64,000 nt of DNA, from NCBI GenBank assembly GCA_023053545.1, contig JAKZAN010000004.1, positions 2,480,001-2,544,000 of the forward strand, in the 5' to 3' direction. The first letter of the stretch is position 1. Each line of letters begins with the position of its first letter. The stretch is from Lepidurus packardi. Taxonomy: Eukaryota > Arthropoda > Branchiopoda > Notostraca > Triopsidae. The notes beneath the pieces are model-generated. The model worked only from the letters and a program-made list of their open reading frames with translations. It was not told the origin of the DNA and did not search any database. Position numbers and translations under genes: made by a program. Below, piece by piece: positions 21,582 to 56,000 of the stretch.

Positions 21582-24500
21582 TTACACACACACAAGGTAT
21601 TTGCCTAGATTTATGGCCATGACGATGAACGCTAACGTGGACCCTAGAGTTGGGTGAAGACCTGCTGACCGCGTGCAATCTTCAGAAATATGACCGGTTC
21701 TGGCCATGAGCCAGTAAAAGCCCTTCATGCGATTCTGCTTCTTGAGCTCCTCACCCACTTTGGTCCTCAACATTGCGTTGTATTCGTTCAACCACTTCCG
21801 CTAAAAATATATTAGGCTCTTTTCATTTCTCGAGCAAGATAGGTGAACAGAATTTCGTATTTTCTTACCTGTTTCACGCTCAAAAGTTCGGTCATAATCA
21901 GGTTAGGCTCGTAAGGCACGAGTGTGACCGTCTCGAACGTCATATACCTCCCATCAAATTTATGCTAAACGTGAAAAAAAGGAATAAATTAAGTTATTAG
22001 TAATCTAACTAGTTATTTAAATAAATATGAGAGCATTACGGCGGTGGCATGGAGAAGAACTCGTACAATGTTCTCAATACGGATCCCAAAGTTGTTATCT
22101 TCATAATAGCCCGGTTCTACCTTAACAAAATTTAACTTCAAAATCCTATTAAAAGAAACACTTTGCTAGCTTTTACCAATGGATAAGAAATAATTCTCTT
22201 CTAGTCGGTAAGGATCATTGGAATAAATCCTCACACGAGTTGGACTCTCATGGACACTTAAAAAAGCCCCAATACCATGGCCAGTACCGTGCCGGTAGTC
22301 TAGACCAATACTGAACAAGTGACTTCTCGCGACAACATCAATTTTGGAATCTTCGGTTCCTTCAGGAAAGATCAAACTTGATAAATCGATGTTTCCCATC
22401 AACACTCTCGTGTACGTCTCTTTATGCCAGTTCGTCGGAGTGCCAAAATGGAAGGTACGTGTCACATCCGTTGTGCCGTCTTCAAAAATAGAAAAAAATG
22501 CATAAGAAGATAAAATAGGAAGCGATGAACAATAAATTAAGCAAAAAATCTCACCAAAATACTGTCCCCCTGAATCGAGTAAGAATAATGACGAATTATC
22601 TATTTTGGCGTTAGTCTCAGGAGTCGGCGAATAATGTATGATGGCACCATTGGCCCCAAAACCGGCTATTGTCCCAAAACTAGCTCCTTTGGATAGCAAC
22701 TGACTGGACCGAAACTCCTGCAACTTGGAAACGACCTTTAACTCATCCCATTCTTTCCCAGCTTGAACCTGCACCACAAAACACAATTATTGTATTATTT
22801 TTCTATGAATTAACTAATTTACTTCTTCTTCCAAGAGCGCCATAAAATCACACAAGGCTACTGCGTCTTTCAAATGCGCGTTTTTCATGTTGCTTACTTC
22901 CAATGTGTTCTTTTTAGCCTTCAAGAAAATAATTGGCGATTGACCTAAGCTCCTTTGACCCTCAGGTATCTATAAAAACCGAATTAAAAGTCCCTCAAGG
23001 TACTTTTAAGCTGTTAACGAATTACTGTCCTATAGATGGCGTAGCTCGAACCTCCAGAATACGTGACCTTGCTAGGTACCAAAACAGTGCGTAAATCCTT
23101 CACCAAAGTCGGCAAATCTAGCCAAATGTGACCGTAATTCCTTATTCTGTTCAAACATTAACATAATCATGTTAGAAAGGACAATTATCAATTAATCTAA
23201 CAAATGTCTTACTGGGCGCAATCTGCAGAATCGCAGCCAATGCTTCCCAGGTGCTTTCGTACGGCATCACTTATTTTATCTTCGTCGACGTACAAAACAA
23301 TTAATTGAGTCGAAATAAAGGCATAGGAGTAAAACAAAGGGTTTTCTTCCACATCCGCGCCTCGAAGATTGAACAACCATGCGATTTCATCCAAGGCCGT
23401 CACAACCATACCGTCGCTGCCCATTTCTTGCAGTTCTTTCCGGACCATGTCCACTTTCGCCAACCAAGGTTGTCCTGTTGAAGGTAAGAAACAAAAAGTA
23501 CGTCACACAAAACCTTTCCATTATTTTTTTCTTTAAAAAACCCTAAAAAACATCAAGGAAATGAGACATAAAAGCGGTGAAAAGACATAATTTGTTACAA
23601 AATGTGGACAAATTGAATTAAAATGGATTTTACTATTTAATTATTTTTTTTTAAATTACCAGCAAAGTCAAGGGAGTGTACGTACACCGTTGCGTTGGAC
23701 ACTGGAGGACGACCGTCAGCCCACGTCCAAATCATATCTACTAAATTCTGGGTGACAGGTTCCAAATTTATCCCCGCTTCGTCTGAAATGAGAAAATACT
23801 ACAGTAGAATTTGACTGCAAGTTTGGAAAATTAACACTTCTTTTGTGTTTACTTAATTCCGCTTTCAATTGCAGCCATGTGCTCGCTCCCATGAGCTTAG
23901 GGTCCACCCCCACAGTATCGTTGAACTTGAGAACGCTTGTAAGCCATTCAACAATTGTAGGGACCTTTTAACAATTGCTTTTTATTAACGTTTTTATATT
24001 AAATTGACATTTGGTGTTTGTCAAGAGGTCGGCATTACGTTTTCTCGCCCTTCTTTCATGAGGAGCCAATTACAGTCCAGTTGTTGGTCGGCCTGCAAAT
24101 AATACCGGTTATCGGTCCATACTGCGGCCGAATCCATGATAACCACAGCCGTACCCGCACTACCAGTAAATCCACTCATGTAGGCGCGACGAGCATCCCG
24201 TAGTGACGTATATTCGCTCTTTGGAAGATAAATTATTGAATTGTTAATTATGAAAATATTTTTTCATGAAACAAAGAGGCGCCTTAATAGCTAAGCGAGT
24301 AATTAGTTGCCTTTATTTCTGTGAAGTACTTTACTTTTTTAAGTACATGCGTACTTAACTAGTGTAAACAGTAAGTACTATACAATTACATAACATAATA
24401 CTAAGGTGTAAATAGATAACGTATTGAGTAAGTAGGAAACTTATGGAATAAGTAAAATACATATTACAAAAGTACCTAAGTTCGAATGTACGTACTAATT

Positions 24501-26487: not shown

Positions 26488-26495
26488 GATACACG
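26488..26495. repeat. 8-bp target-site duplication, left
   Basis: GATACACG, repeated exactly at 32034-32041 on the other side of the element. Confidence 0.9.
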
Positions 26496-26639
26496 CAAGG
26501 GGTTCGAAACTTGACTGTAGCCTCGTACACCCTGCAAAGTCGGTTACAATTGTATCTCTTTGTAGCACGTGTAACTTCACTTGTGACTGAATAACTTAAC
26601 AATTACATAGATTGTAGCTTTGTACCACTACAATAACCG

Positions 26640-26770
26640 TTGTAACTTTAGTTTTAGCTTTGTAGCCGTACTTTGTAGCGTTGTAACCGTACTTTGTAGC
26701 GTTGTAACCGTTGTTTGTAGCTTTATTACCGTACTTTCTAATTTTGTAACCATATTTTGTAGTTTTGTAA
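26640..26770 (+). repeat. Subterminal tandem repeats of the transposon
   Basis: Includes two identical adjacent copies of GTACTTTGTAGCGTTGTAACC, with further diverged copies on both sides. Similar units recur near the right end in the same orientation. Such arrays are often transposase-binding sites in DNA transposons. Confidence 0.75.
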
Positions 26771-27049
26771 CCCAGTAGCCTTCCCTTCGGCCCTTGTTCA
26801 CTTTACTCCCCACATGCTAAACAGTAACCCAGGAATCTGCAAATTGTAGAGTATTTCCTTGGGTCAATCGCGAATGGAGTGAATCGCGGTTCATCATCCA
26901 AACCATGCCTGTTTCAATGACAATACGCCACAAATTGCAAGTTAAACTTGCAGTGCGTTAGTTCAAAGTCATTAGTTCAAAGTGCATTAGTTCAAAGCCA
27001 GAGCCGAAGCCCATAGTGTGGAAACAAACTACATTTTTATTTTGTTACA

Positions 27050-30000
27050 ATGTCTAAAGAAGTAGAAACGCAGACAGAAGACTGCCGAGAATACTGCCGA
27101 GACTATGTTTCAACTGCCGAGAAAGCTTTATTCGAAGATTTAGCAAAATCCTTTGTATTGCGACCGCATATTGCTCAACTGCTTAAGACTTCGGGGTATA
27201 ATAGTTGGCTTAGTTTATCGGAACTTGACAATGATGCGCTTAAGCAAATAGAGACGCTGGTAAGAACGAAAGTAGCAAAGCGCTGGATAAACGCGACGAC
27301 TTCCGAGCGAAAGTTAATTTTTGGAGATTTCTTTTGTACCATGCCGGAGGAATTCGAGTTCATGCCCGGTGAGCTAATACAGTTGAAGCATATTGTAGAA
27401 TACGCTAAGAAAAGGGTTGCTGGTTTTGAACCATTATCAAAGAAGCCCCGCTACAAAGATTCGGTAAAAAAATCAGCTGTACACGAGAATCTACATAGTC
27501 CAGGAACTTCTACGCAAACAGCAGATGCGTCTAAAACAATTTCTTCAGCAGCTTCTGCTGCGGCTGCGAAGTCTGTCCGAATTTACACACTTGCAAAAAA
27601 GGTAAACGCATGGGTTGAGGCAAACCAAGACAAAGTTCATTTCGTTTTGGAAGACTTCGAGTTTCCAAGCGAAGAGCAATTACTAGGCAAGACAATAGCT
27701 GTCATCAAGTGTCTGCGTTGCAAGGCCAACTTGAGTTGCCCGCGTGTAGGCAACGGCCGATACTGGAACATTGGATCGGTTTCGAGACATCTATCGCAAA
27801 AGCACCATAAGCAACTCGGCGAAGTTAAAGGCAACCCTACCAAATCCAATACCGTTAGAAATTACTTAGTCAAGAAACCCGACATGACCTTTAGTGCACC
27901 TGCCCAATCCGAAGAAGTCAACGAAATTCAAGCGTCACCTGGGTCAGCAGCAAATAATATGGATGCACCTGCTTTCACCATTGATTTGGATATTGAAACA
28001 CAAGAAAGAAGTACTACAATGGGGCAGGGTTTTTAACAGCGGGAGTTACTCAGACGCTAAGTACTCCCGCAAAATGGAACAGTCGGCATTACAGGCGTCG
28101 AATCAAACGAGAAAATGTGATAAGTAGCGATCTCTGTCAGACTCAGATGGACGACTACCTTGAAGTGTGTAATTCACTTAAGAAACTGGAAAGAGAAAAT
28201 TTAGCTTTGCAACGTATTTGTAAGGATCAGCATGACCGTACGGCCGCCATTGCCAAATGCTTCGGTTCTATAGAAAAACTGTCTTTCCTGTGTAAGGAAA
28301 GTGATCATGAGAGCTTGCTTGTTCGACTCTTGCATGCAGCCGTAAACAATTCTGGAAAAGATAGTCGTGGCTTTCGATATAATGATGAAAGTCTGAATCG
28401 GTTTGCTTCCTACGTATGGATCGTTGGAGGAAGGACACTATATGAGACGCTTGTTGCCAATATGAAAGGCAGTTTGCCTAGTCCTAGATTAATTGAAACC
28501 AAAGTTAGTCAACATGTGCGGCCTTTCCTTGAAGGAGAGGTTCAGGTCGAAAAATTGAAGAGCTACTTGGACAACAATGGATTTCCTTACATTGTTGCTT
28601 TATCTGAAGATGCTACCAGTATTACTGGAAAGCGAGAATACTCTTCAGATACAAATACCGTGATAGGCTTCAGTTTACCACTTGGGGAAACCGGAGCCCC
28701 AATAATTGGAGTCAATGAAGTAAAAAGTCTAGCGGATTTGGTCAGAATGTACAGAACATTAGACGTTGCATCAAACGTTTTTATCGTTATGGCACAGCCA
28801 CTATCGAACGAAGCTTCGCCTGTCTGCATTTGCGTTTTTGGAAGCAATAATCGCTTTACAAGCGAAGACGTGAAGAAACGATTGAACTATGTGTCAGACG
28901 TACTAAAACAATCTGGAATCGGAGTCCTCAGTTACGCCACCGACGGAGATAGTCGAGAGATGAAGCTAATGAGGCAAGAGCTGAAACTTGGAAGCAATTG
29001 TAAGAAAATTATTTGTAATTTAATTCAGCTGGTCTTAAACTTTATTTTTCTAAGGTGGCGCCCTAAATGGTTGGCACTGGTTTTACGCCGATCCCCTGAC
29101 GAGTATTATTCCACTGCAAGACAGTCCGCATCTCGGAGCAAAATTGCGAGTGCGCCTGCTAAAAAAGGAAAAAATTCTTCCTTTTGGAAACTACATTGCA
29201 ACTCCAATCGACGTCGAACAGCTTCGTGAGGCAGTCGGAAAAGATGTTCACATAATTCGTGACCGTGATTTAGATCTGCGCGACAAAATGAATTACGACG
29301 GCGTCGAAAGACTTAGTAGCCCCAAAACAATTTCCTTGTTGGAAACTCACGTACCTGCCTCGAAAGCCACTTGTTTCTATCTAAAACTGGTTCATTTTTG
29401 TACAAGTGCCTTCTTAGATAACAATTTAGATCCAACCGAGCGAATTTACCGAATGTGGTACGTAGTTTTCGGACTAAGACTTTGGCGAAAATGGATGCAG
29501 TGTGATAAAGTCTATTCTCTTCAAGATAACTTTATTACACTGAATGCTTATTTGTGTGCGGAGATCAATGCCCATAGCTTGATTCTCATAATTCGCAAGC
29601 TTCGCGATTCCGGTAGGCCACATCTTTTTTTGCCTCGTTTAATGAGCAGTCAGCCTTGCGAGCAGTTTTTTAGGTCAGCAAGGGCTTGTTCTACTGCAGG
29701 AAGCAGTCAAGTAAATTTCTCGCTCAAAGATTTTATCACTTCACGGTGCAAAAAAATTGACTGTACGTTGCTCCTTCATTCCACACGTGAAAGAGATTCC
29801 ATAAACTACCCAACGTTTGACCGCCATAAAAAGAAATATGGACAGAGGAGTGAAATTACCTGCCCAATTTTACCGTCAGACGCAGAGATTGAAGCTACAG
29901 CTTGCAAAGCCATGCAAGACAGTGAGGGTGATTTAGAACGCCTAGGAGTCTGTTTTGATATTGCGAGCCCTCAAACGAAGACAGACTTTGATAAAAAGCT

Positions 30001-30799
30001 GCAATATTCCTCGCAAGCTGCTCAGCCCACTCATGGAATCTTTGAGGACGAGGAAGCTGAAGAAATATCTTTTACATGTGATGAAAGCTCCACTTCACTC
30101 GAAACTATAGAAGATGATGACGACATAGATCTAGCCTTGCTGAGTTCGTTGAGTAAAATTCAGGTACGAGATTTCGGAGGAAGTTCTCTTGCAGGGCCTC
30201 TTGCAGGGCCTCTGAATACAGAGATTGATATTCGATCGCCCTTCATTAAGATTCCCGTAGGTGACGGATTCAAAGTGGTTCGAAAGAGCAGCCTTTGTTG
30301 GTATTTGGCAAGTGACCAAGTTCGCCTAAGCAGCGACAGGATTGTCCGCGTAACTCAGGCAAGCCAAATATCCAGATTAAGTCACAGAGAAAATAACAGA
30401 CGCAGGACATCACGAAGAGAAGATGATGTTCAAGTCGGTGATTGGTGTGCATTTAAAGACAAGGAAGGTGAAATACTAAAAGAGTTGTCAGTGTTGCTAA
30501 TGGGACGAATTCTGGGCTTTCGGCTTTTGCATGGAGACAGGAAAACTCAAAACTTGAATGACTCTTTTTTTCCGGTGAATGAACATAATGTGGGGGTCAT
30601 CTGTACATGGCATCGAATTAACATGAAAAATGGAGAGATTAGGGAATGCCATGTACATCAACATGGATACCATCCCTTAAAAACTTACTTGTGCACGATT
30701 CCAGTACCCGAAGTTAAAAGAGTCGAAGACGATGCTATGCTTTTTTTCTCGTCCGAGGATCTAATTAGGATACGAGAAGTGATAGAAAACGGGCAATAG
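27050..30799 (+). CDS. Transposase of the 26.5-32.0 kb element (frame change near 28020)
   Basis: Three frames form one protein of roughly 1,230 residues. The first (ATG 27050 to about 28010) has a BED-like zinc finger: CLRC ... RHLSQKHH. The second frame opens upstream of 28117 (reading TAGVTQTLSTPAKW) and runs to 28999. A 55-bp intron (29000-29054) then joins it in phase to 29055-30799, giving GALNGWHWFYADPLTSIIP and LQDSPHLGAKLR. Candidate acidic catalytic residues: Asp in ALSEDATSI, Asp in YATDGDSR, Glu in SSQPCEQFFRSAR. An acidic linker (EDEEAEEI) and a C-terminal part with VGDWCAFKDKEGEIL and GRILGFRLL follow. The switch from frame one to two has no plausible intron (the phase-matching GT..AG is only 29 nt), so a 1-nt indel is likelier. 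No hATC motif seen. Confidence 0.8.
29000..29054 (+). other. 55-bp intron in the transposase
   Basis: The donor GTAAG follows AGCAATT, and the acceptor TTTTTCTAAG precedes GTGGCGCC. Removing it keeps the frame exactly and joins two conserved-looking segments. Confidence 0.8.
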
Positions 30800-32033
30800 T
30801 AATTTGTGTTAAATAAACAGACTGAAAGCATTATTGAATTTTTTTTATTGAAGGTTCTAAATAACAAATTAGTTTAATGTTGGTATTCTTTAATCTATTT
30901 CTTAATAATAGCGTTGCTATTTGCAATTTCTCTTTTCCTTCTTTAACGATTGCCCTGTTTTATTCCCTTTGTAATCCAGAGCGTTTTCGTATTGTGTGTG
31001 TTTGATTATGGTCACCTATTGCCGATGAAAAGGTAGAATAAAAGAACTAATTTCAAACGTACTTACAATTACAAGATATTCCTATTTAAGATGCTCCTAT
31101 GCGAACATTAGACATGTGCATATGACAATGCATTTTATATTAGTGAAACTCAGGAGACTTCAACACTCGTTAAGTTTGCACATATAAGGAATCACGTTGT
31201 TTTCCCATCATTACAAAGTTTCAGCAAAGATTAAAAACAATTCACAAAAAAAACAAGATAAAAAGTCTGCACACTTGTGCGTCTGTCTGTTCGGTTGTAT
31301 CTACACTACCACGTAGAGACGTAGAGTCGGGTCATTGTTCCTGTCGATATCACGCTGGAAGTCAGTTAGTCAGAAACAAACGTTCGAAGTCGGAAACATT
31401 AGAGTAGGAAGCGGGAAACGTATTGAAGTCGTACAAAGTCAACTAAGGCAAAAGGCAAACCTCGAGGCAAACGTACAAAGGCAAACCTCGGGCATACTGA
31501 AATTTGGAAAATATGAGTGTCAAATTATGGGGAATTTGCTACTGATTTAAGGAATTGGTTACTGTGTTTTGTGAAAGGTTGCCAAAATTTAGAATGCCTT
31601 GCCAATAACTGGGGGATGCTTTCCGACTTCGGGAAACACCCACCGGTTTTAAGTGAAGAATGCCCATCATTTAGAAGGAACAAAACATCTTTTGATAGAG
31701 GTACAGCTTTTTTAGTGCCAACTACCGATTTTAGATAGAAAAAATTAACCTACTTTAGGGACCCATTTTTCTAGTGTGTACTTGCAATTATGCTTCACAG
31801 ATTTTATTTTTAACAGGTATCGAAATCTACAACATATATTGTTGTTATGTAAGCGAGATTCTAATTTTATAATATAGCTATTTATAATATGTGAAGCTTT
31901 GAAACTTTATATTTTGTAACCGTGGTTTGTAACATTGTAGCCTATTTGTAGCCCTTGTAGCTCTGCAATTTGTCAGGGTTACAAAATTTTTTGTAGCATT
32001 CGTACACCTGGAAACTGAGTTTCGAACCCCTTG

Positions 32034-32041
32034 GATACACG
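32034..32041. repeat. 8-bp target-site duplication, right
   Basis: GATACACG, identical to 26488-26495. Confidence 0.9.
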
Positions 32042-42165: not shown

Positions 42166-45100
42166 ATGTCTGATGGTGCGTCGAATAAACGAAGACGGAG
42201 TCAGCGATGGGCCACGATTGCCGAGAAAGTTTTAGACCGGACTTCCGTAGATGATATCGCTATAGAGGAAACGTTCTCACCAGAAAACAGCTCATCAGGA
42301 CCCGAGCCACGAGTAAATGATGACTGTAAACCACAATTGCGTAAACGGATTTCTAGCCAACAATTGCTAAAAGATCTTAATGAGGGTAACCATCTTCATT
42401 TATTTGCATTCCTTTTCAATATTTTGCAATATTTTACACTCCTTTACATCTTTGTATTCTGTTTACAGTTATAATAAATGCGTATTCTTCACATCTTTCA
42501 AAAACTAATTTATTGCGAAGTAACAAAAATCATGCTATTTCTTGGTTTTGAAGGCAAGTGTGATGAATGGGATCCAGAATTATGTGTCCAATTGATTCGA
42601 CTACCTTCTGTTACAAACTATTCTGGAGTGCGAAAACTCGTAGCTCGTTCTTCACCGGAATGGATGCGCGAATTCTTAGACCGAGACGGTTTAAGCTTGC
42701 TTTTCGCCAGTTTAGAAAAGCTGTCATCTCGGACGACCACGTGCAGCATATCTGGAGCGATATTGTTATTGGAAGCTGTTTTGGCCGTCCGTTCTGTTAT
42801 CAATTCGAAAGCTGGACTGGAGTACTTACTTGCGGACCGACGATACACGCGCCAGCTGGTCAAAGGTAAACTTATCTTGCCATAGAGTAAACATATACCA
42901 CACACACACTATACGTAAACCTGTTTTCACACGTATACTTTAGACAATTCTTTCAAAGAAATTTTCAGCATTATTGCAATTATTAAAGCTTTCGAATTTT
43001 AAGAAATTTTTTTGCAGTGTTCTACTTTCTTAGATTTTCTTAATGTAAAGCAGTTTTAGTTTTACAATAATTCTTCAATTATTAATCGACTTTAAATATC
43101 TTTAATTGTAATTTTATCACATCTATTGTAACTTAAATTTTCTGCTGTAATTACCGTTATATTTTGCTATAACTTTAAAATTGTAGTCTCTTAATTTGCT
43201 TAAATTTCTATTAGACTAAATTTAATTGGCGTAAAATTTGCCACAATCTTTAATTGTACAAATTACGATGGAAAGTCTTGAAGTCCATAACTTCCTTGCT
43301 TTTTAACTCCATAGCGTTGGGAAACAAAAACCCCATGGTCAAGAAGCACGTTTTTGAATTATTCAGCGCAATATCTGTATATTCGAATCAAGGCCATTCA
43401 GCTACTATAGATGCGCTAGATTTCTTTAAGGTATTTAATTCTTTTCGTTTTCTTTTGCTTGATCATTTAATTCAGAAATCCTGTCTGGAATACGGAAAGT
43501 ATTAAAGGGCGCTTTACATTCCACTAGATTACCAACTCAAAACATGACTACCGTTGCAGCATTATAGTGACGGAATTGAAATCCGATGAATCCGCAACTT
43601 ACAAGTCTTCCGTGTTGGGCTTTGCTAATTGTTTAATCTTGGGAGCGGAACAAGCGCGAGTTCGCTTTTCAGTACGAAGCGAACTGATTGGGTTGGGAAT
43701 ATTGGATGTGTTAGCTGACTTGAGAGGTTTGGATGACGAGGAATTGTGCATTCAAATTGAAGTCTTTGAAAACAGCCGATTTGAGGATGAAGACCAGTTA
43801 GAGCTCAATGAAGAGAAATCGTTTCATGATCTGTTTCAAGAAATCTTCGTCAAAGTAATTGCCTTTTCCTCACCAAACTAGTTCTGATCTTTCTGATCCA
43901 AACACGATATGAACTTCAACAGGTTAGAGGCACACCTCGTGCTTGTACATTCCAGTCAGTTCTTCTCAATTTATCAAAGTTGGATGAACAATCTCTTATT
44001 GCGTAACTTCATATACAATCTCTTCCAGAATGCATCACTCTCTTATTTTTTTTGTTTAATCGCTTGTAAAGGGATCGTCTTTGGTCAGACTTGGAACACA
44101 TTAGCGCTGCTGCTCTCCAAGGCAACATTCTCTCTGCAAATCATTACGCTTTTACGAATACTGCATCTAAACTCACAAAATCTGAAGAAACAATAACTGT
44201 GCAAAGTTCCGAGAACATTCGACGTAATAATGTTGAAACAACCTACTCTTCTACCAGAAACGAAATTACTGCAGCGTCTAAGGGTAATGATAACAACATG
44301 TCTAAAAACCAGCAGCAGAAATAATATCTTTCTCCTAAGTAGTAGAAAAGTCAGAAGATGTCGTTTCGGCTCCTTTGCCGCTCGCAGTTCTTCCTGTAAT
44401 TGCAGGTGCCATTTTGAATCCTGGGACATCCGCGTCAAAACCAGTTACAACAATTCCACCACCTCCCCAGCCTCCACCTCTATTTCTGCCATCAGCACCA
44501 CCTCCTCCTCCACCTCTACCACCACATTCCGCAAACCATTTTATACCTACATCTATTCCTCCTACTCCTCCCCCTCCCCCTCCTCCGCCACCTTTAACTC
44601 TTACTGCTGGGAGTTTACCTCCTCCACCCCCTCCTCCACCACCTTTTGCTACCAATTCTGGGAATGCACTTAAGCCCCCACCCCCTCCTCCATCCTTCAT
44701 TGTAAGCACCGGGAGTTTACCTCCTCCTCCACCACCAATGGGTCCACCGCCTCCACCAGCACCAAGTGCTGTCATCACTTTGCGTGCACCGGGCGGTGTA
44801 CCCGCACCACCTGGCTTCCCAACTGCTTTGGCAGCCGTTCCGGTGGCGGCCACACCCACCATGCGTACTTTAAATTGGACGAAACTTAACCAACATCAAA
44901 TTAAAAACGAATCCATCTGGAAAGGCATCATTGCCAAGCTGGATACTCAACCTTCTGTCCACCACGACCGCATGTTAGAGCTCTTCGGTTTAAATCGCGA
45001 TAAAACCAACGCCAGTAATTTTACGACTAGTTCACCAGCTGCTAAGAAATTGTCTTCCGAAATTGCCTTGCTTGAAAACAAACGTAGTCTTAGCCTTAAT

Positions 45101-46830
45101 ATTATGCTGAAGCAATTCAAGTACAATCAGATGACGCTGATCAAGAAGTTGAGCACAGGTGATGTTGCAGATCTAGGTATAGAAAAGCTGCGATTACTGG
45201 AGAAGAATCTTCCGGATTCTGAAGAAGTGAGTCAAATTAATTCTGGGTTGTATTTTGTCTTTAAATGTTTAAATTAGGTGGCATTAATTCAAAACTATGG
45301 TGATGACGTCACCAAACTCGGCTCTGCTGAGCAATTCCTGTACCATCTCATTGCTACACCTCATTTCCGGTTACGAATCCAAGGAATGGTGCTGGTAAGA
45401 ATGTTGAAGACAGCCTTTCGTGTGTATTTTCTTTCTATTACTTCCTAATAATTTGGTTACAGAAGGAAGAATTTGCGCCAACCGTTGACGCTCTGCGATT
45501 GCAGTTAATTTCAGTTCTACAGGCAATTGAAAAGCTGATGAGGAACCTTTCTTTGAGGGATTTTTTTGCGGTGATCTTACTGCATGGCAATGCGTTAAAT
45601 GCGGTAAAAGCTTATACTTGTTTTAAATGAGATATCAACGACATTCTTTTGTCCAAACAGGGAAGTTACGCAGGAAATGCTGCCGGCTTTAAGTTGAGTG
45701 TTCTGCCTCGCTTGGCAGACATGCGAGCCAACAAACCGCGCGTGACATTGCTGCACTACGTTGTCGAAATTGTTCAGGCTGAAAATCCTAGCTTGCTAAC
45801 GTTTGTAACTGATTTCGAGAATCTCAAAGACATAAACAGGTTAGCAGTTATATACTGTTTCTACAAATACCTGCCTAAGCAATTGTCAGGCAGAAAAATG
45901 TCTGAAAACTTTGAAATGCCTAAAATCTACTTACAATCTGCAGGGTTAGCATAGAAGGCTTGCAAGCAGAAGTGAAGCAAATAAGTGGAAGAGTAACAAG
46001 CCTGAATGGTCAAATGAATTTTGTCAAAGAATCCGATTTGAGAGCCGTTTTTGAAACGTTCTTAAGGGATTCGACGACGAAGTGTCGTGAGTTAGAGTCA
46101 CTGGTACAGGACATTCAAGCGTCAACTACGAAGCTGGCGATTTATTTCAGCGAAGATCCGGAGAAATTCCATTTGGAAGAAATTCTTGGAATTTTCGTGG
46201 ATTTCATTGACAAAGTCAAAGCTGCTCTCAAGGTAGATTAATTGAAATAGTTTAACCTTAAATTGCGCTTTTGAACACTAAATTAATTGTTTCAAAACCC
46301 ATTCTGATTAAAAAGACTAAATTTCATTATTTAACACTAGAAATTATATTGGTTAACAGTCAAATCGATTGCTTAACTCTAAATTCGCATGTTTAACACT
46401 GAAATCGATTACGAAAACGCAATCTGACTGCTTGAAGTTAGATTCCCCGTTTTACGCTAAAGTCGAATGCTTAAGGTTAAATTTCTCGATAATTAAACAG
46501 GAAAATGAAGCTCGAAAGCGTCAGGAGGAAAAAGCGGCGAAAGTAGCAGTAGAAAAACAAACAATAGCCGCTGCTTCTGCTCTGAAGGCGACATCTGCCC
46601 GTAAAGCCGGAGTAGACTACACAGACGGAGCTTCCCTAGTCCTTCGCGAAAATAAACCCTCGAATGGCGTTGAAGCTGAAATGGAAGACGAGGAGGATTC
46701 CGTAATAGTTCGCCCCAAGAGGTCCTCGTATGCGATATACGAAGCGCAACGCCAAGTGTGCGTTGTGGATCGTCTTTTAGATGACATTCGTCGTGGTGAG
46801 TTCAAATTACGAAACGCTAGCAGAGCGTAA
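42166..46830 (+). CDS. INF2: Formin, INF2-like
   Basis: Exons include about 42166-42379, 42555-42866, 43312-43432, 43476-43498 (23 nt), 43560-43855, 43922-44000, 44072-44284, 44336-45226, 45278-45394, 45464-45603, 45661-45838, 45946-46234 and 46501-46830. The N-terminal GBD/DID armadillo region (DPELCVQLIRLPSVTNYSGV; MVKKHVFELFSAISVYSNQG; ELIGLGILDVLADLRGLDDE) leads to a proline-rich FH1 (44430-44770) and an FH2 domain (LNWTKLNQHQ; KRSLSLNIMLKQFKYNQM; GNALNAGSYAGNAAGFKLS; RVTLLHYVV). The C-terminal segment QVCVVDRLLDDIRRGEFKLR matches the WH2/DAD region of INF2. INF2 nucleates and also severs actin filaments, notably at the ER and mitochondria. Gene order of domains and the C-terminus favour INF2 over Diaphanous or DAAM. 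No CAAX end is present. Confidence 0.94.
43476..43498 (+). other. 23-nt microexon of INF2
   Basis: Between TTTAATTCAG and a GTATTAAAG donor lies AAATCCTGTCTGGAATACGG plus AAA. Splicing it in gives DALDFFK-KSCLEYGN-IIVTEL, aligning with human [20 protein letters not shown]. Skipping it breaks the frame. Confidence 0.8.
46240..46500. repeat. Degenerate 25-30 bp repeats in the last INF2 intron
   Basis: Variants of TTTAACACTAAATTCGATTGC recur about nine times (for example near 46250, 46275, 46333, 46355, 46373, 46393, 46450, 46470). The copies are too diverged to be a simple satellite. Confidence 0.5.
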
Positions 46831-47034: not shown

Positions 47035-50000
47035 TCATGCGAGTAACTCGTCTTGGATTTCTGTACCCCCATTGCCATGGTAAACACGAATCGGTCCTGG
47101 ACAGTAATGGAACACGTCAAAATTGTCAGCAAACGTCATTTTGGCATGAACGTCCAATTGTCTGTTCCACGTGCAGTTCAGGAGTCGAAACCAGTGTGGG
47201 TAAGCCATACTAATTAAGGTTAGGAAGTCTTGGTCGCCTAAAGAGCCGTTGAATTGAAAAGCAGCGTTGATGGTAGTCAGCGCAGGACCCGTTAGTTGCT
47301 GGTTGTAGAGTTTACTGCCTCGCATTCGTTCCAGGTTGTAAAGCACTACGCCCGAGTTGTAGCCCTAAACGCGTGCGCAGCCATAAAATAGTCAACATTT
47401 TTTAAATCAGTTAAGGTTATCAATGACCACGGCTTTACCTGGTGTCCTCCTTGAATATGGGGCAAACCGACTTTGGAATCTGGATGAGAGGTTCGGTATT
47501 TACTGAAAGCGAGCCAGTAATGCGGCGCTAAGTCGTGAGCGATTTCTATAAGAGTAGTGGAGGAAAAGTAGTTGAACTCGTCCTCCAAGTCGGCGATGTC
47601 TGACAAGAACCGAAGATCGGCATCGAGCATGATGAGTCGCTTAAAGGGAAAGATGCGATGATATGCCCCTCCAATGTAGAACAAATCATCACTATAGCGA
47701 GTATCTTGGGGATCATCGGACTGAAAGTGCTTCTTCATGACTTTAATAACGTCTCGCAGTTTGCCCGTTACGACGTTCAAGTTCAAATAATCCACCTGTA
47801 TATGAGAAATCACAAGTATTAAGTTGGGACATCAGATCTTCTGTTTATCAGACCTTCTGTCCATCAGACAGAAGCAACCTACATTTACGGGCTTTACGAG
47901 CTAATACCAACGCTTCGTGACCTTTTTTGTTATAAAAAAGTGTAACCTATATCTCGCTTTCGAAGAAGCTTCCGTTACGGCTCCCGTATACCTTAGTTCA
48001 TTGATGGGAAAGCGTCACAGATGGCACTGCTGTATGTTTTTTTTTTTTTTTTAATGGGAACCGGTCGGCTCGCGCATATTGCCTAAGGCTTTATTAGGTG
48101 TACGGCTGTACATTGTCACTGTTTAAGGCCACGGTGTAGTGTAACTCCTTATAGCGCTATAGCATGGCAAACTTAAGTTACACCTTTCTCAGTCCCTTTG
48201 CAATATAATCAAATTGTATTGTGACAGTAATGTATGGTATTTCTTTTTCAATTTAACTGGGTTGCTAGTTTTTAATATTTGGCTTCCATAAATTTTTTAC
48301 GTAGAAGAACATGTTAAAATATTGATATAGAAAAAAAAACCGAACCCAGATTTTTCGAGTTTATTATTATGATATTTTTAAAGAAAGAATTTTTCAATTA
48401 TCTCTTACTGTTTACTTGGAAAGGTGTACTAAAGTTTATGAAATTCGGATGAGAAATTGTGCTGCCACTCAGAAAATAACGACCAGGCAGGAAACTGCAT
48501 AGCTTGTGCAGAACTCAAGAATGAGGATGAAAAGGAGATACCGTAAAAGTAGGGGGAAGGATATGACAAGTCACTAATTGGGTTTGCTCGAGCCTAAAGT
48601 AACCCAAGGGCACAAATACCTTGTGGCATTTTACCCTTTTCTTTTTGTCTCCGAATGGCTTTTCTCGAACATTTTCCCCCTGTTAGCAAAGAGGGGAAAG
48701 AGGTCAAGAAAGCGAACCAAGTTGGGTCTAGAAAAGGTGAAAAGATTTCCGGCTTGGTTACGAAAGCTAAGACTATAAGTATAGCTGCAGATAGCTGCTT
48801 GGCGTGTAAATTTGGAAAATTTACAGTACAAATACATACATTTATTAAAGAAACTTACCTTACGTGTTGGTTTGTAATAATGAAAACTAGCTTTACTTAG
48901 GCATCAGTTCTAATTTGGTCATCACCGGATGCAAGTAACTCTTAGCTCAATGGTATATTTAAAAGATACCATTTCACGGTGGCATTTTATATTTGACATC
49001 TCACGAGAGGCTCAAACTATCCTTTACTCTCAGGCATTAGTTAGTATTGTCATCACCGGATGCAAAAAACTCTTGGCTCAATGGTATATTTAAAAGATAC
49101 CATTTCACGGTGGCATTTTATATTTGATAGCAACCTCTCGGATGTTTTTCATTGGTGAACTCAATGATTTCATGAAGGAAATCATCTCACGAGAGGCTTT
49201 GACGTGCATTTCATATAAGCTTTCAATAAGTTGACCTCACGGTACATTTATAATTTTAATCCATGTGCATGTTTGACCAACATAATATGTGCATCAGATC
49301 ACTAATCAAGTGGTCTCTTTGCGGCCTTTTTACCGTTTGTTTGGTCTGCGACCTTTTTAGCCTCTATAGCGGCCAAAACGTAAGGCGGCTCCCGCGGAGC
49401 CAACTTTTGTCCCATCCGCGGGTCTGCAAGTTCAAGCAACATACAGTCCATGAAAAAGGCTCTGAGTTTTGGAAGCATTGTGTCTTCCCAAAAAACCCTG
49501 TCAAACACAATCCGCTCAACTTGCAAACTGTTCTTTGTCCATGCAACAAAATCACACCACGCTCTTCCGGTCACGGCAAGCTGTCCTGTAACTTGGTAGT
49601 AGTGATTGTGCGTTCTCTTCAATCTCAGTTTGTCACCATCAATTAACTCTAGAAAGCAGTCCTTCGGTTTTGATTTTACAAATTCAATGAAGGAAGACGC
49701 TGTCTCTGCCTTTTGGGGACACTTTATCTCGATAAGTCCTTCGTCACCTACAAGGCCGTCGGGAGATGCTCCCAGGTAACCTAGCTCAGGATGCACCCAA
49801 AACCCTGATGGGACTACAGTCACACAGTTCTTTATTTCGTAGTCTTTCCTGGCATTTGGCTCATTGGCCTGTCCGTAACGAGTACCTTCTGTGCTAATGT
49901 TATTAGGACTTAGTATTGCTTGCAATGTATTTTGACGCAAAGTTGTATCTCTGAGCTTACACACTTTGCCAAAGTGAGAAGCGGTCAGTCTACTCGCCCT

Positions 50001-53000
50001 TGCATCAAACCAATCAGAAGAATCAGCCTGCTCTCTAGTTTTCTCTTCAAGGGCCACAATCTGCTCCCTGCTAAGCTGCTGTTGAGCAACAATCAGTTTG
50101 CACCTGTCACGTAAGATCTCCTCTGGCAAATCTGGCTTTCCATAATGGCAATCAGGTCCTGCGAAAGCTTCGCGACTCCGAGTCAAAGCTTGTCGTGGAG
50201 AAGCAATAGCATTATTTTCCCGTGACTTCTCTAACCGATTTCTGAACGAAAGAATATCGTCGTGACAATTCTTGGCAAAATTTTCTGTAGCAATGCTACA
50301 GGAACCATATTTTTTCAAAATAGCAGCCTGAAAACCTCGTCCATGGTGATATTCTAGAACAGCACCATAACATCGGTAATTATAAGATCCCCTTTGCGAG
50401 CGGAGAAATTGCTTGCCACCAGAGAATTTAGCCACCATGGACATAAACCGCTCTGCGAGGTTAGTCATAACTTCGGTAAGCAAACCTGCAGCTTTGCTCC
50501 TACAGCCCAACAAGATCTCCATTACTTCAGTGTACAAAGCAATGTGTACATTCTGTTTCAATTTCTGACCCACTGACTTACAACCCTTTCCACCATCGCT
50601 GGCCGCAGTGCAAAAAGTGTGGTCATTCAAAAGATAATGTCTGGGACCATTGCTCAGAAATGAACGAAGTTGATCAACATTTCCCTTCAATCTAGCGTTA
50701 CGATTGATTGCACCTCGTGCTGCACCGCCAAGTTTACGTATCAAAAGAGGGGTCAAAATTTTCTTATTGGCAGGGGTTTTGCCCTGAAGTTTATACAGAG
50801 CTTTCGGGAAATTTTTCATTACATGATTTGCACACTCAAGCTTGCGGACGGTTTTCTGAGTGCGAGGAGTATTAGCGAGGATAGCATTATGGGTCGAAGA
50901 GTCCCCGTCACCAATAAACGTTCGATAGCGCAAGCCGTGCTTGTCTTCAGCATCTCTAAAACCATCTACAATAATGGAGCTTTCCATTGCTGTAGACCAG
51001 GGGTCGGCAACCTTTTACCCAACGCGGGCCAGAACAAATGCATGGAGGGTAGTGGCGGGCCGGATTAATCCTTTGAACTACTAATTCAAAATTCAGCCGT
51101 AATAAAATTTTGGAGGATCAGGAAAGATGTTTATTTAATCCGAAATGTGCTTTATTGGAAGAATTGTCTGTATTTTCAATTTAAAGAGACAATAAGTTCA
51201 GTGCATTGCATTACTCTTATAATGGGTTCGATATTCGTTTTAACATTGATTTGACTTAGTTGAACTAGAATTAATGTGACGCTTGGTGCTGTTTGGCAGC
51301 TGAAAGTTTCTTCATATCACACGACATGCCAGACGATGCCAAGTGCAGTACGTCGCCCAAATGCTCGTCAGTAATTCGATTTCTCAAATGATTTTTTGTG
51401 TGTTTCATTTTTGAAAACAATTGCTCACACACGTAAGTGCTACCGAACATTGATGCCATCCTTTTGGCGTAATTAGTTAAGTTCGGGTGACTCCCGGACT
51501 CAAGAAGATACTTCTTGTAGAAATCTGTTAGTGGTACACCACCTGCATTGAATTTTGATTTCAACACATCATTACATTGCAACTCAATGAGCTCCATCTG
51601 AATATTATCCGGAACGTTATTTACGTCGACATCAAAAGGTGTACTAAACATCCTGAAATCGACTACGTGTGATCGGAGATCAGCAAAACGTGAGGCAAAC
51701 TCGCTTTTTAGAGTGCGGATCACTGCCACAAATTAGCAGCTTTCTTTTGGGTTTCTTTCCGCGAGTGTAGGAAAATGCGAATAATTAGACTTCTCAAGCT
51801 GGTTTTCCCACAATCGAAGCTTTGTTTCGAATGCAGTAACGTGGCTCCACATTTCATGGATCAGTTGATTTTTTCCTTGAAGCTGCAAATTCAGGCTGTT
51901 CAAATGCCTCGTTAGGTCGACTAGAAACGCGAGGCTTGAAAGCCACGTTTGATCCCGAAATTCTTTGGCGTTCATGTTTTTGCTCTCAAGAAAGCCAGCT
52001 ATTTCTTCACGGAGGGAATACACTCTTCCTAGCATAGCACCACGACTAAGCCAACGAACATCACAGTAATAAAGTAAGTCTCCATATTCATTCTCCGATT
52101 CGGACAAAAGTGTTCGAAATTGACGATGATTTAAACCCCGAGACAAGATTACATTGACCGTTTTTACAGCCACGTCCATTACTTCATTCAGATTCGATGT
52201 TTTGGCACACAGTGCTTCCTGGTGTATGATGCAGTGTATCTTTGTGACATCGTGAACGATTCCGAGGCCTTCCATATGTTTCCTAAGTAAGGCCACGACG
52301 CCTTTATTCTGTCCGACCATAGCCGGAGCTCCATCGGTTGTTACGGACACAAGCTTTGTCAAGTCCAAATCGAGATTCGAAAAACACTGAAGCAATGCTG
52401 CCAGAATGTCCTCTCCTTTGGTAGTACCCTTCATAGGTACCAGTTGTAGGAATTCCTCGACAATTTCGAAGGTTTCAGTAACTCCGCGTATAAATACTGC
52501 AAGCTGTGCAGTATCAGTGGCATCAGTGCTCTCATCAAGGGCTATTGAGAAGAACTGAAATTCCTTGCAACTCTTTCTTAAATTGCTTTTCAGGTCAGCT
52601 GATATTTCTTCAATTCGCCTCGTAACGGTTCTCGCCGAAAGGCTTACATTTGAAAAAAGATCCTTTTTCTCCGGACATACTATGTTTACAACGGCCATCA
52701 AACACTTTTTTACAAAATCACTATCTGTGAAGGGTTTCATTTCCTCTGCTATAAGTTTTGAGACAGCAAAACTCGCAAGTGTGTTTTTCTCAGATTCTGA
52801 GTTCTGATTCTTAAATACCAAGCTTTGCTTTTGCAGACTACGACTGAGTTTAGCAATTTCGTCTTTTCTTAGTTGACCGGTAAATTCAGCGTGGTTAGAA
52901 TGATTAGCCTCGTAGTGTCGCTTGATGTTGAACTCTTTATGAACGGCAACACTTGCCTGGCAAATGAGACATATAGGTTTTCCGAAATGCTGGACAAAGA

Positions 53001-56000
53001 AGTATTGATCAGTCCAGCACTCTTGGAAATTGCGACATTCGGTATCAACTTTTCGACGCTTTGCTGACATTTTCCCAGAAAGTGGAAGAATTTGCTACAG
53101 TATCACAGAAAGTTGGCTACTTTACTATCACGAAAGTGAAGCACAACGAGGCGAATCCACTATGAATAGCCGCAGAACGCGAACGTGGCAGCGTCAAGCT
53201 AAAAGTGGAACTGGAACAGCGAAATCAGTTCAAAATGCTAATAGTAGGCTTCACGGGCTACACTGTGCTGAGCAGACTAGACTAGGGTTGGATTCAGATG
53301 TTTTGCGAAAATCTTTTTAAAGGAACGACGTAGTCAAAACTTATATATTAGTTTATAAGGTACCGCGGGCCGGATGCATGTAATATTTCACCCGTGGGCC
53401 GCGGGCCGGATAAAATGGGCTGGCGGGCCGGATTCAGCACGCGGGCCGTAGGTTGCCGACCGCTGCTGTAGACGGACCGTCCCAGTTTTTGAAACATTCG
53501 TGGGGGCGAGGATCCACTTGTTTGTTCTTAGCTTGTTGACAAATGGAACAATATTTGTTACGAACTCCTACATGCAATATTTTCTTGGTCCGCGCACCAA
53601 TGATTACGCCCACACCTGACTTGGCTGTGTACCTGGTGCCGTGGCTCCTTTGAGACCACCCACCATCGCCAATTACGGTTATGTACGGCGTGTTGTCTTC
53701 GTCGATTTGTTCAGCCCGTTCAGCCGATTCACGTTCTTCCTTCCCTGCATTTTCTATTTCTAGCTTTGCCTCTTTCTCCCATATTTTCCCAACTTTACGT
53801 TCCTGTTCAATAAATGAGTTGCGGTTCATTGAAGGAACGCCAACGGTTGCCATGAATTCTTCTAAGTGGTTATGGGCTGCACCAATTTGCATAATTCCCA
53901 TTGCAATTTTTGTGTTGACGGACAGAGCCTGAACTTTATCTGACCTCAAGCGTGCAGCATGCGGCGAAATGTTCTTTTGGGTAGGCCTTACATGCGCATA
54001 TGGAGAAACCTGGTCAGTTGTTATAAAAAATTTTTTTGTTAAATTGGTATTCCCTCCCATTCTCAAGCGAACATAGGGAGGAAGTTCCTTAGCATAAGCT
54101 GACCTTTTCCCTTTACCCCATACTTTACCCTAATTATTGTGTGCAGACCTCTAGTGCGAGAAATTAGTCATAGGTGTATATTTATTTGTAGCATTCTCAG
54201 GATATAGGGGTCTATGCCAGCGACATCTTTTGACGGAAAATAGTCAACTACTTACACCACACCGTGGCCTTAACATTGTGCTATAACAAGGGTGGGGATA
54301 GGTGCAGAACAAAGGTACAACCCCGTGAGGGGGAGGTACAGGAGCAGGTTGGGGGAAGGAGGGGGGTTTGATGTTTGCTATTGTTTTGCGAAAGCCTTGC
54401 GCAAGAACTTAAGAAAAGAAACAGATAGCTAATTGCCGGCAAAGTTTCTACGCTTGTTTCGCTTCTGAAGGAGTAAGCATTTATATAATTTTTTATTTAC
54501 TTGTGGGGTCTCCAGAACGAATTAATCAAACTCCCATTAAATCTATGGTAAATCGATGATCGGTTAACGAACAATTCGGGTAGTGGACATCTTTTGGGAA
54601 CGAATTATGTTCGTTAACCGATCACCCACTGTATTTGAAAGCCCGAATCGATTTCCTTTTATAATTTTGTCACAGTAAAAATGAAAACCGTGTTTCTCCT
54701 ATAGGAAAGCCTACACTGAAGCCTCATAAGGCACCCGTATGCCTTAGCTTATTGATGGGAAAGAGTCACAGATGGCACTGTTGTTTGCTCTTGTTTTGCG
54801 AAAGCATTGCGTAAGAAAGTAAGAAACGCAATAGAGAGATAATTGCCGGCAAAGTTTGTACGCTTGTTTTGCTTCTCAAAAGTACAATTTGTCACCACAG
54901 TTTGCTGTAGCAATACAATGTCTCAAATTAAGTCGTCAAACTTTCGGAACAAGGTTTCTCGAAAACGGCTTGTCGGGTTTGACAGCAAACTAAAACAAAC
55001 GTTTTCTTTTATTAGCAGCTAATGCACAACCAAAGGACAGATTTTCAGGAAACGTATATCTCATAGTTGCAAAATTCATTTGGATATTGCTACTTTATTA
55101 CTCATTGGAAAGAAAATTTGCATAGGTTTATTACAACCTGTTAGTAAGCTCAAGATTACTGTCAAAGAAGTTTTTCATTAAGTGCACTACTTTCCCAAAA
55201 AGTTGTTCCGAAATATCCCATGCTAACCGCCTATCTTCCGAGCTAAACTTCCGAGCTCAAGTATACTGGAGCAATTCCATTAAGCCAATCAATTTCTTGC
55301 CAACCATACCTATATATACAGGTACTAAAGCAGATCCCACTGCGGTAGCTTCTGTACCAGAATTTCCAGGAGTTTTAGCCATGTCAGCCCACGTGACCTC
55401 TTCAACTTGATCTTCGTTTGGCAGCAATTGTTGTACAATTTGCAAACGGCATTTGGTTTAGTCGCTTATCTACTCGCTAATATAAGCTATTTACCTTACT
55501 CGTCCCTTTTTCTGAATAAGACCCACGATTCCCTGTTCTGTCTTTGGTTTGTTGAAATCGGTAGTACGATTTTACAGTGTGGGACGTTGGAGGAGGAAAA
55601 TGTTCGGCACTGCTGTGGGTAAAAGCGCCCTTACCGCTCGTTTTGATGGAATCCAAGCGCTAACTTATTATCCACAATTTTGTAAAAGTGATCTTGAAAA
55701 TGAGCATCAGATACTCGCATATTCGTAGTCAATACAGTCGGCCCTTGGACGACGAATTTGCAGTGTCCATTGGCGGCGACGACTTGGATCTTAGGGTAGT
55801 TATAACCCTCTACTAAAGGTAAAGGTAACTTCGTTCGAACAATTAAAAGCAATATACCTTGAAGCTCCTTTCATTTGATCCTGAAAACTGTGAGCACTTT
55901 ATTTCATTTCGTCACAAAATAATACCTTATTTTAAGATTCCTTTTCACCAAAATATAACCTAAGAAGTCGCCCCTCCTATTTCGTGACGTCATGCAATTT

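Follow-up and report, generated by a model that had tools for sequence, protein, structure and literature searches.

A P-like DNA transposon of Lepidurus packardi with a predicted −1 ribosomal frameshift between its two reading frames

Element A and its genes

The window analysed here is a stretch of 64,000 nucleotides (nt) from the notostracan Lepidurus packardi (contig JAKZAN010000004.1, positions 2,480,001 to 2,544,000 of the forward strand), which lies on contig C3 of a host assembly of 108,557,554 bases in 344 contigs. It holds a DNA transposon, designated element A, whose ends and two open reading frames (ORFs) are listed in Table 1; positions are those of the window, and all counts of pattern and protein matches in the genome are lower bounds. 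Element A is a real and complete transposon. An earlier sequence-only reading had described a complete transposon with exact 16-bp inverted ends and an exact 8-bp target duplication, and all of this is borne out, the duplication GATACACG being present on both sides; the interpretation in that reading is partly supported. The −1 frameshift signal at the junction of the two ORFs is a more unusual feature than those it named. Inverted ends, 8-bp duplications, further copies, internal-deletion derivatives, split frames, a slippery heptamer and a covarying hairpin are all present in the sequence. Judged from them, element A is probably a recently mobile cut-and-paste P-like transposon which uses programmed −1 ribosomal frameshifting for its transposase.

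One large spliced transposase had been proposed for the locus. The splicing stands, since one intron joins exons 2 and 3, and a sister family in the same genome (family B, described below) changes frame at the same point as the 55-bp intron of A. The single coding frame does not stand: ORF1 and ORF2 use different frames, with a −1 slippery site at their junction. ORF2 of A is open in the −1 frame from position 27997, and ORF2 of family B opens 18 nt before the heptamer, so that the space available for a shift is about 25 nt. The junction codons are CAG GGT TTT TAA in A and CTG GGT TTT TAA in B. The ORF1 proteins of the two families (45% identity) align up to their final two residues, Gly-Phe, and the ORF2 proteins (71% identity) align from the junction Gly-Phe of the slippery site onward; the conserved protein is thus continuous across the slippery site, where its frame changes. 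The tail of ORF1 also carries an acidic hydrophobic motif (positions 27977-27997; TIDLDIE in A, NIDIDEE in B), which we take to resemble a SUMO-interaction motif.

Table 1. Coordinates of element A and its component features in the window
Feature	Position	Strand	Basis
Element A, complete DNA transposon, 5538 bp	26496..32033	+	Inverted ends, target duplication, other copies
Left target site duplication GATACACG, 8 bp	26488..26495		Exact
Left terminal inverted repeat, 16 bp, exact	26496..26511	+	
Left subterminal array, TTTGTAGC / TTGTAACC-type repeats, mainly + strand	26559..26771		Motif positions
ORF1, 328 codons + stop, Cx2C...Hx4H zinc-finger pattern; predicted DNA-binding/repressor product	27050..28036	+	Open frame, 45% identity to B ORF1
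−1 slippery heptamer G_GGT_TTT, ORF1 frame, directly 5' of stop	28027..28033	+	Unchanged in 10/11 related places
ORF2 exon 2 (−1 frame): a predicted long helix followed by the first half of the RNase H-like core (SED, ATDGD)	28033..28999	+	
ORF1 stop codon TAA	28034..28036	+	
Hairpin, 8-bp stem + inner pairs; predicted frameshift stimulator	28039..28070	+	Fold z, covariation, lowest minimum free energy
Intron, 55 bp, GTAAGA...TTCTAAG	29000..29054	+	Removal joins exon 2/exon 3 frames
ORF2 exon 3: QDSPHLGAKLR, PCEQFF, C-terminal part to stop	29055..30799	+	
AATAAA, possible poly(A) signal	30812..30817	+	Read from sequence
Right subterminal array, TTTGTAGC / TTGTAACC-type motifs, mostly direct orientation	31914..31996		Motif positions
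Right terminal inverted repeat, 16 bp, exact	32018..32033	−	
Right target site duplication GATACACG, 8 bp	32034..32041		Exact

Predicted frameshift signal

In both A and B the heptamer G_GGT_TTT fits the pattern X_XXY_YYZ, stands in the zero frame and lies inside the overlap of ORF1 and ORF2. The spacer between heptamer and hairpin is 5 nt; a structure that stimulates −1 frameshifting is expected 5-9 nt after the heptamer. In A the stem is formed by GCGGGAGU and ACUCCCGC with inner pairs, with a minimum free energy (MFE) of −17.2 kcal/mol and a z-score of −5.58 over 41 nt, and in B by ACGGGAGC and GCUCCCGU with four inner pairs (MFE −19.5, z −6.14, 41 nt); the value of A or B was reached by none of 200 shuffles at this length. 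Among 975 sites in the window, on both strands, at which a canonical heptamer is followed by 41 nt, the site at 28027 has the lowest MFE (next lowest −16.1), and among the 52 window heptamers with an immediate stop the next-lowest MFE is −14.8. Passages of PMC5009743 place G_GGU_UUU among the −1 heptamers at which mammalian ribosomes shift most readily.

Covariation in the hairpin was assessed in an alignment of five rows (A, two relatives of A, B and the fossil family C). Standard pairs fill 96.4% of the pair cells, compared with 29-61% when the partner strand was slid. Two pairs, both in B, have changed on both sides in a compensatory manner, and the four nucleotide differences behind them change the amino acid in the ORF2 frame, so that pairing was kept where the protein changed. 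A pseudoknot seen by eye between the loop GACGC of A and a downstream GCGTC was dropped, since B does not keep it. Rfam at gathering scores gave no match over the window.

A search of the genome for the cassette with up to 3 mismatches reached at least 11 places, ten of which (six of family B, four of A) keep GGGTTTTTAA, the remaining one being the decayed fossil C. A protein search from the first residue of ORF2 reached the same 11 places, which gives the count a second basis besides the pattern. No cleanly fused ORF1/ORF2 frame was present among them. GGGTTTTTAA is identical in A and B, while the proportion of synonymous differences (pS) between these families is 0.61-0.77 over the three coding blocks (ORF1 0.77, exon 2 0.61, exon 3 0.68); the proportion of nonsynonymous differences (pN) is 0.36, 0.17 and 0.16, respectively. 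Over the first 25 codons of exon 2, which contain the slip site and the hairpin, pS is 0.38.

Several observations weigh against a conserved frameshift signal. The dip in pS is unspecific: codons 20-40, mostly past the hairpin, have a pS of 0.34 with a higher pN (0.44), and codons 220-240 of exon 2 are also low (0.40). Over 60 nt the fold is weaker, with z-scores of −3.15 (A) and −2.81 (B), each reached by 2 of 200 shuffles. The covariation was reached by 21 of 500 shuffles and, with few rows, is only moderate. The intact signal is found in two families only, A and B; family C (L050) has decayed, has lost the heptamer and adds no covariation. Family C had been considered as a third test of the signal and was set aside as a decayed fossil; a possible deletion of 1 nt at its heptamer appears as a gap in one alignment and not in the other.

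Copies, derivatives and sister families

The host assembly contains 18 exact matches to the left-end 20-mer of element A and none to its reversed control, so the ends are not due to chance. A second copy with the same termini, set beforehand as a test of the element, was thereby found. With up to 2 mismatches allowed and a limit of 7.3 kb, the right end is present at 10 of the 17 other left-end places and was not found at 7. A perfect 8-bp duplication flanks eight of these ten two-ended copies, the exceptions being L025 and L031. Seven of the ten are internal-deletion derivatives of 1.4-1.7 kb, with aligned pieces that agree with element A at about 92-99% identity. One deletion junction is common to some of them, which shows that they were amplified as non-autonomous elements. 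At positions 602-1287 of L025 lies a short composite derivative whose right end is present twice, in tandem.

A protein search of the genome with exon 3 gave at least 16 matches, among them five copies of family B that match without interruption at 81-82% identity. The copy in L042 is 4765 bp long, with the ends CAAGGGGTTCGCAA... and ...TTACGAACCCCTTG, and is 99.94% identical over this length to that in L043, which indicates that the lineage moved recently. An 8-bp duplication, read from the flanks, is present in four of five two-ended copies (not in L044); the right end of a sixth copy, in L047, was not found. Family B is not intact throughout, as ORF1 of L044 contains a TGA and ORF1 of L046 matches in two pieces. 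Its left end occurs at 18 places with up to 2 mismatches. Family D (L052) resembles A only up to just before the ORF1/ORF2 junction. No relative was confirmed outside the host genome, in searches of viral contigs with joined ORF2 and exon 3 and of genome contigs with exon 3.

The subterminal repeats of element A are largely in direct, not inverted, orientation at both ends. The subterminal motif of family B is a different one, AGTTTAAC, which is frequent on the + strand, the only strand counted, at both ends of the copy in L042.

Relationship of the transposase

The motifs SEDATS, YATDGDS, QDSPHLGAKLR and PCEQFF noted in the sequence-only reading are all present in element A. The only Pfam family matched by A and B is PF21787 (TNP-like_RNaseH_N), with E-values of 0.0046 (17.7 bits) for the joined ORF2 of A, 0.00048 (20.9 bits) for exon 2 of A and 0.0024 (18.6 bits) for exon 2 of B. 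This family has at least 29 matches in the host genome, 28 of them over the cut-off. At positions 200-3217 of L053 there is an uninterrupted P frame of 1006 amino acids (aa) that scores over the respective cut-off for each of the THAP, P-HTH, GTP-binding and RNase H N- and C-terminal domains (control values 1.1e-13 for THAP and 2.6e-38 for PF21788), so that canonical P and P-like lineages coexist in this genome.

An alignment of A and B was compared by hhalign with three P proteins of the same genome and gave an E-value of 0.0009 over 234 columns, a result of moderate strength as the alignments held two and three rows. SED is paired with FDE, ATDGD with FDG and QDSPHLGAKLR with PDPSHMLKLVRN, which covers both Asp motifs and the D-P-x-H region. 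In a rerun the score of 37.8 exceeded all 100 column shuffles (highest 30.5) and the reversed control (21.8), and comparison with single hAT-like and Mutator-like sequences of the window gave E-values of 0.56 each. With moderate confidence, the core is judged from sequence comparison to be a distant relative of the P-element transposase, which narrows the superfamily previously called unclear and agrees with the P-like motifs pointed out before. Element A is called distant P-like and not canonical P because THAP was not found.

The zinc-finger pattern Cx2C...Hx4H of ORF1 had been labelled BED-like, a label that did not hold: no Pfam family, including THAP and BED, matches ORF1 of A or B at E-values up to 10. 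GTP-binding PF21788 gave no match in exon 3 of A or B, where the core itself matches Pfam too weakly for the miss to be telling. A search of PDB sequences at E-values up to 10 gave no match for the single protein and one irrelevant match for the profile. In the AlphaFold model of exon 2 (pLDDT 56.8) a long helix is followed by more helices and then by a mixed strand-helix part, an order that is weakly in keeping with the P type. No transposase is named among the best 50 of 567 Foldseek rows or the 50 VIA-align entries listed for this low-confidence model, which excludes nothing.

The P relationship is weakened by the following points. All PF21787 matches are under the 24.6-bit cut-off and are confined to positions 63-134 of 137; Pfam has no match, the P GTP-binding and RNase H C-terminal families included, for exon 3 of either A or B; and the hhalign probability is just 22.8%. 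The candidate third acidic residue, E535 of PCEQFF, was assigned by eye, which gives a spacing of D203-D314-E535 in the ORF2 protein, with 221 residues from the second Asp to the Glu. Exon 3 alone compared with P proteins gave an E-value of 0.059 on a stretch that was not taken as homologous, and the candidate catalytic Glu was not aligned with that of P. The AlphaFold models are poor (pLDDT 56.8 for exon 2, 29.8 for exon 3).

Alternative explanations

The main rival, which is given a small probability, holds that the ORF1 stop lies within an intron with weak splice sites, the removal of which fuses the two ORFs, the hairpin being incidental or a regulator of splicing, comparable to retention of intron 3 in Drosophila P. 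P elements are indeed regulated by intron retention, as described in passages of PMC7776569. A scan for GT-AG introns of at least 30 nt, with donors from −250 to +12 nt of the heptamer start and acceptors up to +150 nt, found frame-restoring pairs in A (35) and in B (36). By our own reading four donor positions correspond between the families, at offsets −248/−212, −173/−143, −158/−128 and +2/+2; acceptors +27 and +114 are common to the first three, and +139 to the last, which lies inside the heptamer. It speaks for the intron, and against frameshifting, that the best rival donors agree with the consensus at 5 of 9 places compared with 6 of 9 for the accepted intron donor. A purine is preferred at donor position +3 in animals, whereas the corresponding donors all have T or C there and score 3-5 of 9, and acceptors +27 and +114 have no clear pyrimidine tract. 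Residues past the −173 donor are still conserved (NTVRNYLV / NTVKNYFV), and over the 48 codons of the ORF1 tail pN (0.441) is below pS (0.677), a modest signal. Splicing does not lead one to expect a canonical heptamer right before the stop codon, followed after 5 nt by a covarying hairpin.

It is very unlikely that ORF1 and ORF2 are separate cooperating proteins, made by reinitiation or from separate transcripts. ATGs do occur in ORF2 downstream of the junction in A and B, but the first of them stand at different places in the two families, and the residues 5' of these (GAGFL..G.T.T.S.P.KWNSR.YRR) show conservation that starts at the slippery site. That the frame break arose by ordinary pseudogene decay, from a once-single ORF, is hardly credible: many genome copies are decayed or deleted, yet the same break occurs in 10 of the 11 places, which belong to two families with synonymous sites near saturation and include recently moved B copies, and has no fused counterpart among the 11 (counts being lower bounds), the eleventh place being decayed. 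Membership of the element in hAT, not P, is improbable as well. The 8-bp duplications would suit hAT, as would the CAAGGGG... terminus, which resembles hAT ends. The core shows no hATC match, in agreement with what had been claimed: neither hATC nor any other hAT family of Pfam matches A or B at E-values up to 10, and the hhalign E-value with the single hAT-like sequence of the window was 0.56 as opposed to 0.0009 with the P proteins.

Proposed mechanism

Under programmed frameshifting most ribosomes would finish at the end of ORF1, giving a 328-aa protein that lacks the catalytic core. This product would bind DNA and would likely act as a repressor by competing for the element ends, the candidate binding sites being the subterminal TTTGTAGC / TTGTAACC arrays in A and AGTTTAAC in B. 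A minority of ribosomes, stalled by the hairpin, would slip back one base on G_GGU_UUU and produce a transposase of 1231 aa (328 + 903 residues, counted from the coordinates), and the ratio of shifted to unshifted product would cap transposition. As the intron lies about 960 nt past the ORF1 stop, transcripts on which translation terminates there might face nonsense-mediated decay.

On balance we favour a broader reading, in which a conserved −1 frameshift in the style of viruses and insertion sequences (IS) controls an animal Asp-Asp-Glu (DDE) transposase, with unshifted ORF1 as a built-in repressor. Element A would then represent a P-like lineage that exchanged THAP for another finger and regulated splicing for regulated recoding.

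Other features of the window and the assembly

Fragments of Mutator-like transposases lie on the − strand at 49302-51014 and 53434-54129, the former continuing in frame into an exonuclease domain of the YqaJ type. Between them, at 51733-53094 on the − strand, is a frame of 453 aa that has a zinc finger of the Spin-doc type and matches DUF4371 below threshold; we take it to be hAT-like, and it served as an hhalign control. Host-type gene pieces with BIR (apoptosis inhibitor), peptidase M24 and formin FH2 domains are located at 463-1392, 22166-22786 and 44339-45277, respectively. The host assembly contains many COX1-like stretches with internal TGA on large contigs, which are probably nuclear mitochondrial copies; stop-free COX1 is found on C52, C214 and C43 and is possibly bacterial.

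Comparison with known systems

Element A shares with P-element and THAP9-type transposons (Drosophila P; L053) the 8-bp duplications, the internal-deletion derivatives, a distant homology that takes in the two Asp motifs as well as D-P-x-H and, in a weak model, a predicted long helix before the RNase H-like core. It differs in lacking Pfam matches to THAP, P-HTH, the GTP-binding domain and the RNase H C-terminal part, all present in L053, and in carrying the Cx2C...Hx4H pattern in ORF1 where P has THAP. The frames of A are joined by a predicted −1 frameshift, unlike those of Drosophila P, where intron 3 is retained and a 66-kDa repressor is made by intron retention (passages of PMC7776569). 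In outcome, the predicted ORF1-only product would parallel this repressor, by analogy.

In bacterial IS elements, according to passages of PMC5009743, the −1 frameshift fusion is the transposase, low frameshifting limits transposition and control of this kind is widespread; further passages of the same source deal with frameshifting in yeast retroelements and ciliate elements. The likeness to IS elements lies in overlapping upstream and downstream ORFs joined by −1 frameshifting, which in A is predicted. Element A differs from them in its animal host, its P-like transposase and its intron, and no homology is claimed.

Euplotes reportedly makes frequent use of +1 frameshifting, and we know of no −1 heptamer-plus-hairpin cassette in the ciliate elements. 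The ciliate transposons (Euplotes Tec2; telomere-bearing elements of Oxytricha) resemble A as eukaryotic DNA elements with a gene that needs a frameshift, a need that in A is predicted; the source is a passage of PMC5009743 and, for Tec2, a title cited in PMC5405496. Tec2 differs in its ciliate host and in that its gene is a tyrosine recombinase, according to a title cited in PMC5405496. No report of −1 frameshifting in an animal DNA transposon was found among the titles and opening lines of abstracts listed from the open-licence literature, or in passages of one large review.

If the proposed mechanism is true, related enzymes have reached a low level of transposase together with a repressor in two ways, splicing in Drosophila P and recoding in element A. 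The cassette, about 50 nt long, lends itself to a direct reporter assay. Genome annotation may break up transposases of this kind or dismiss them as pseudogenes.

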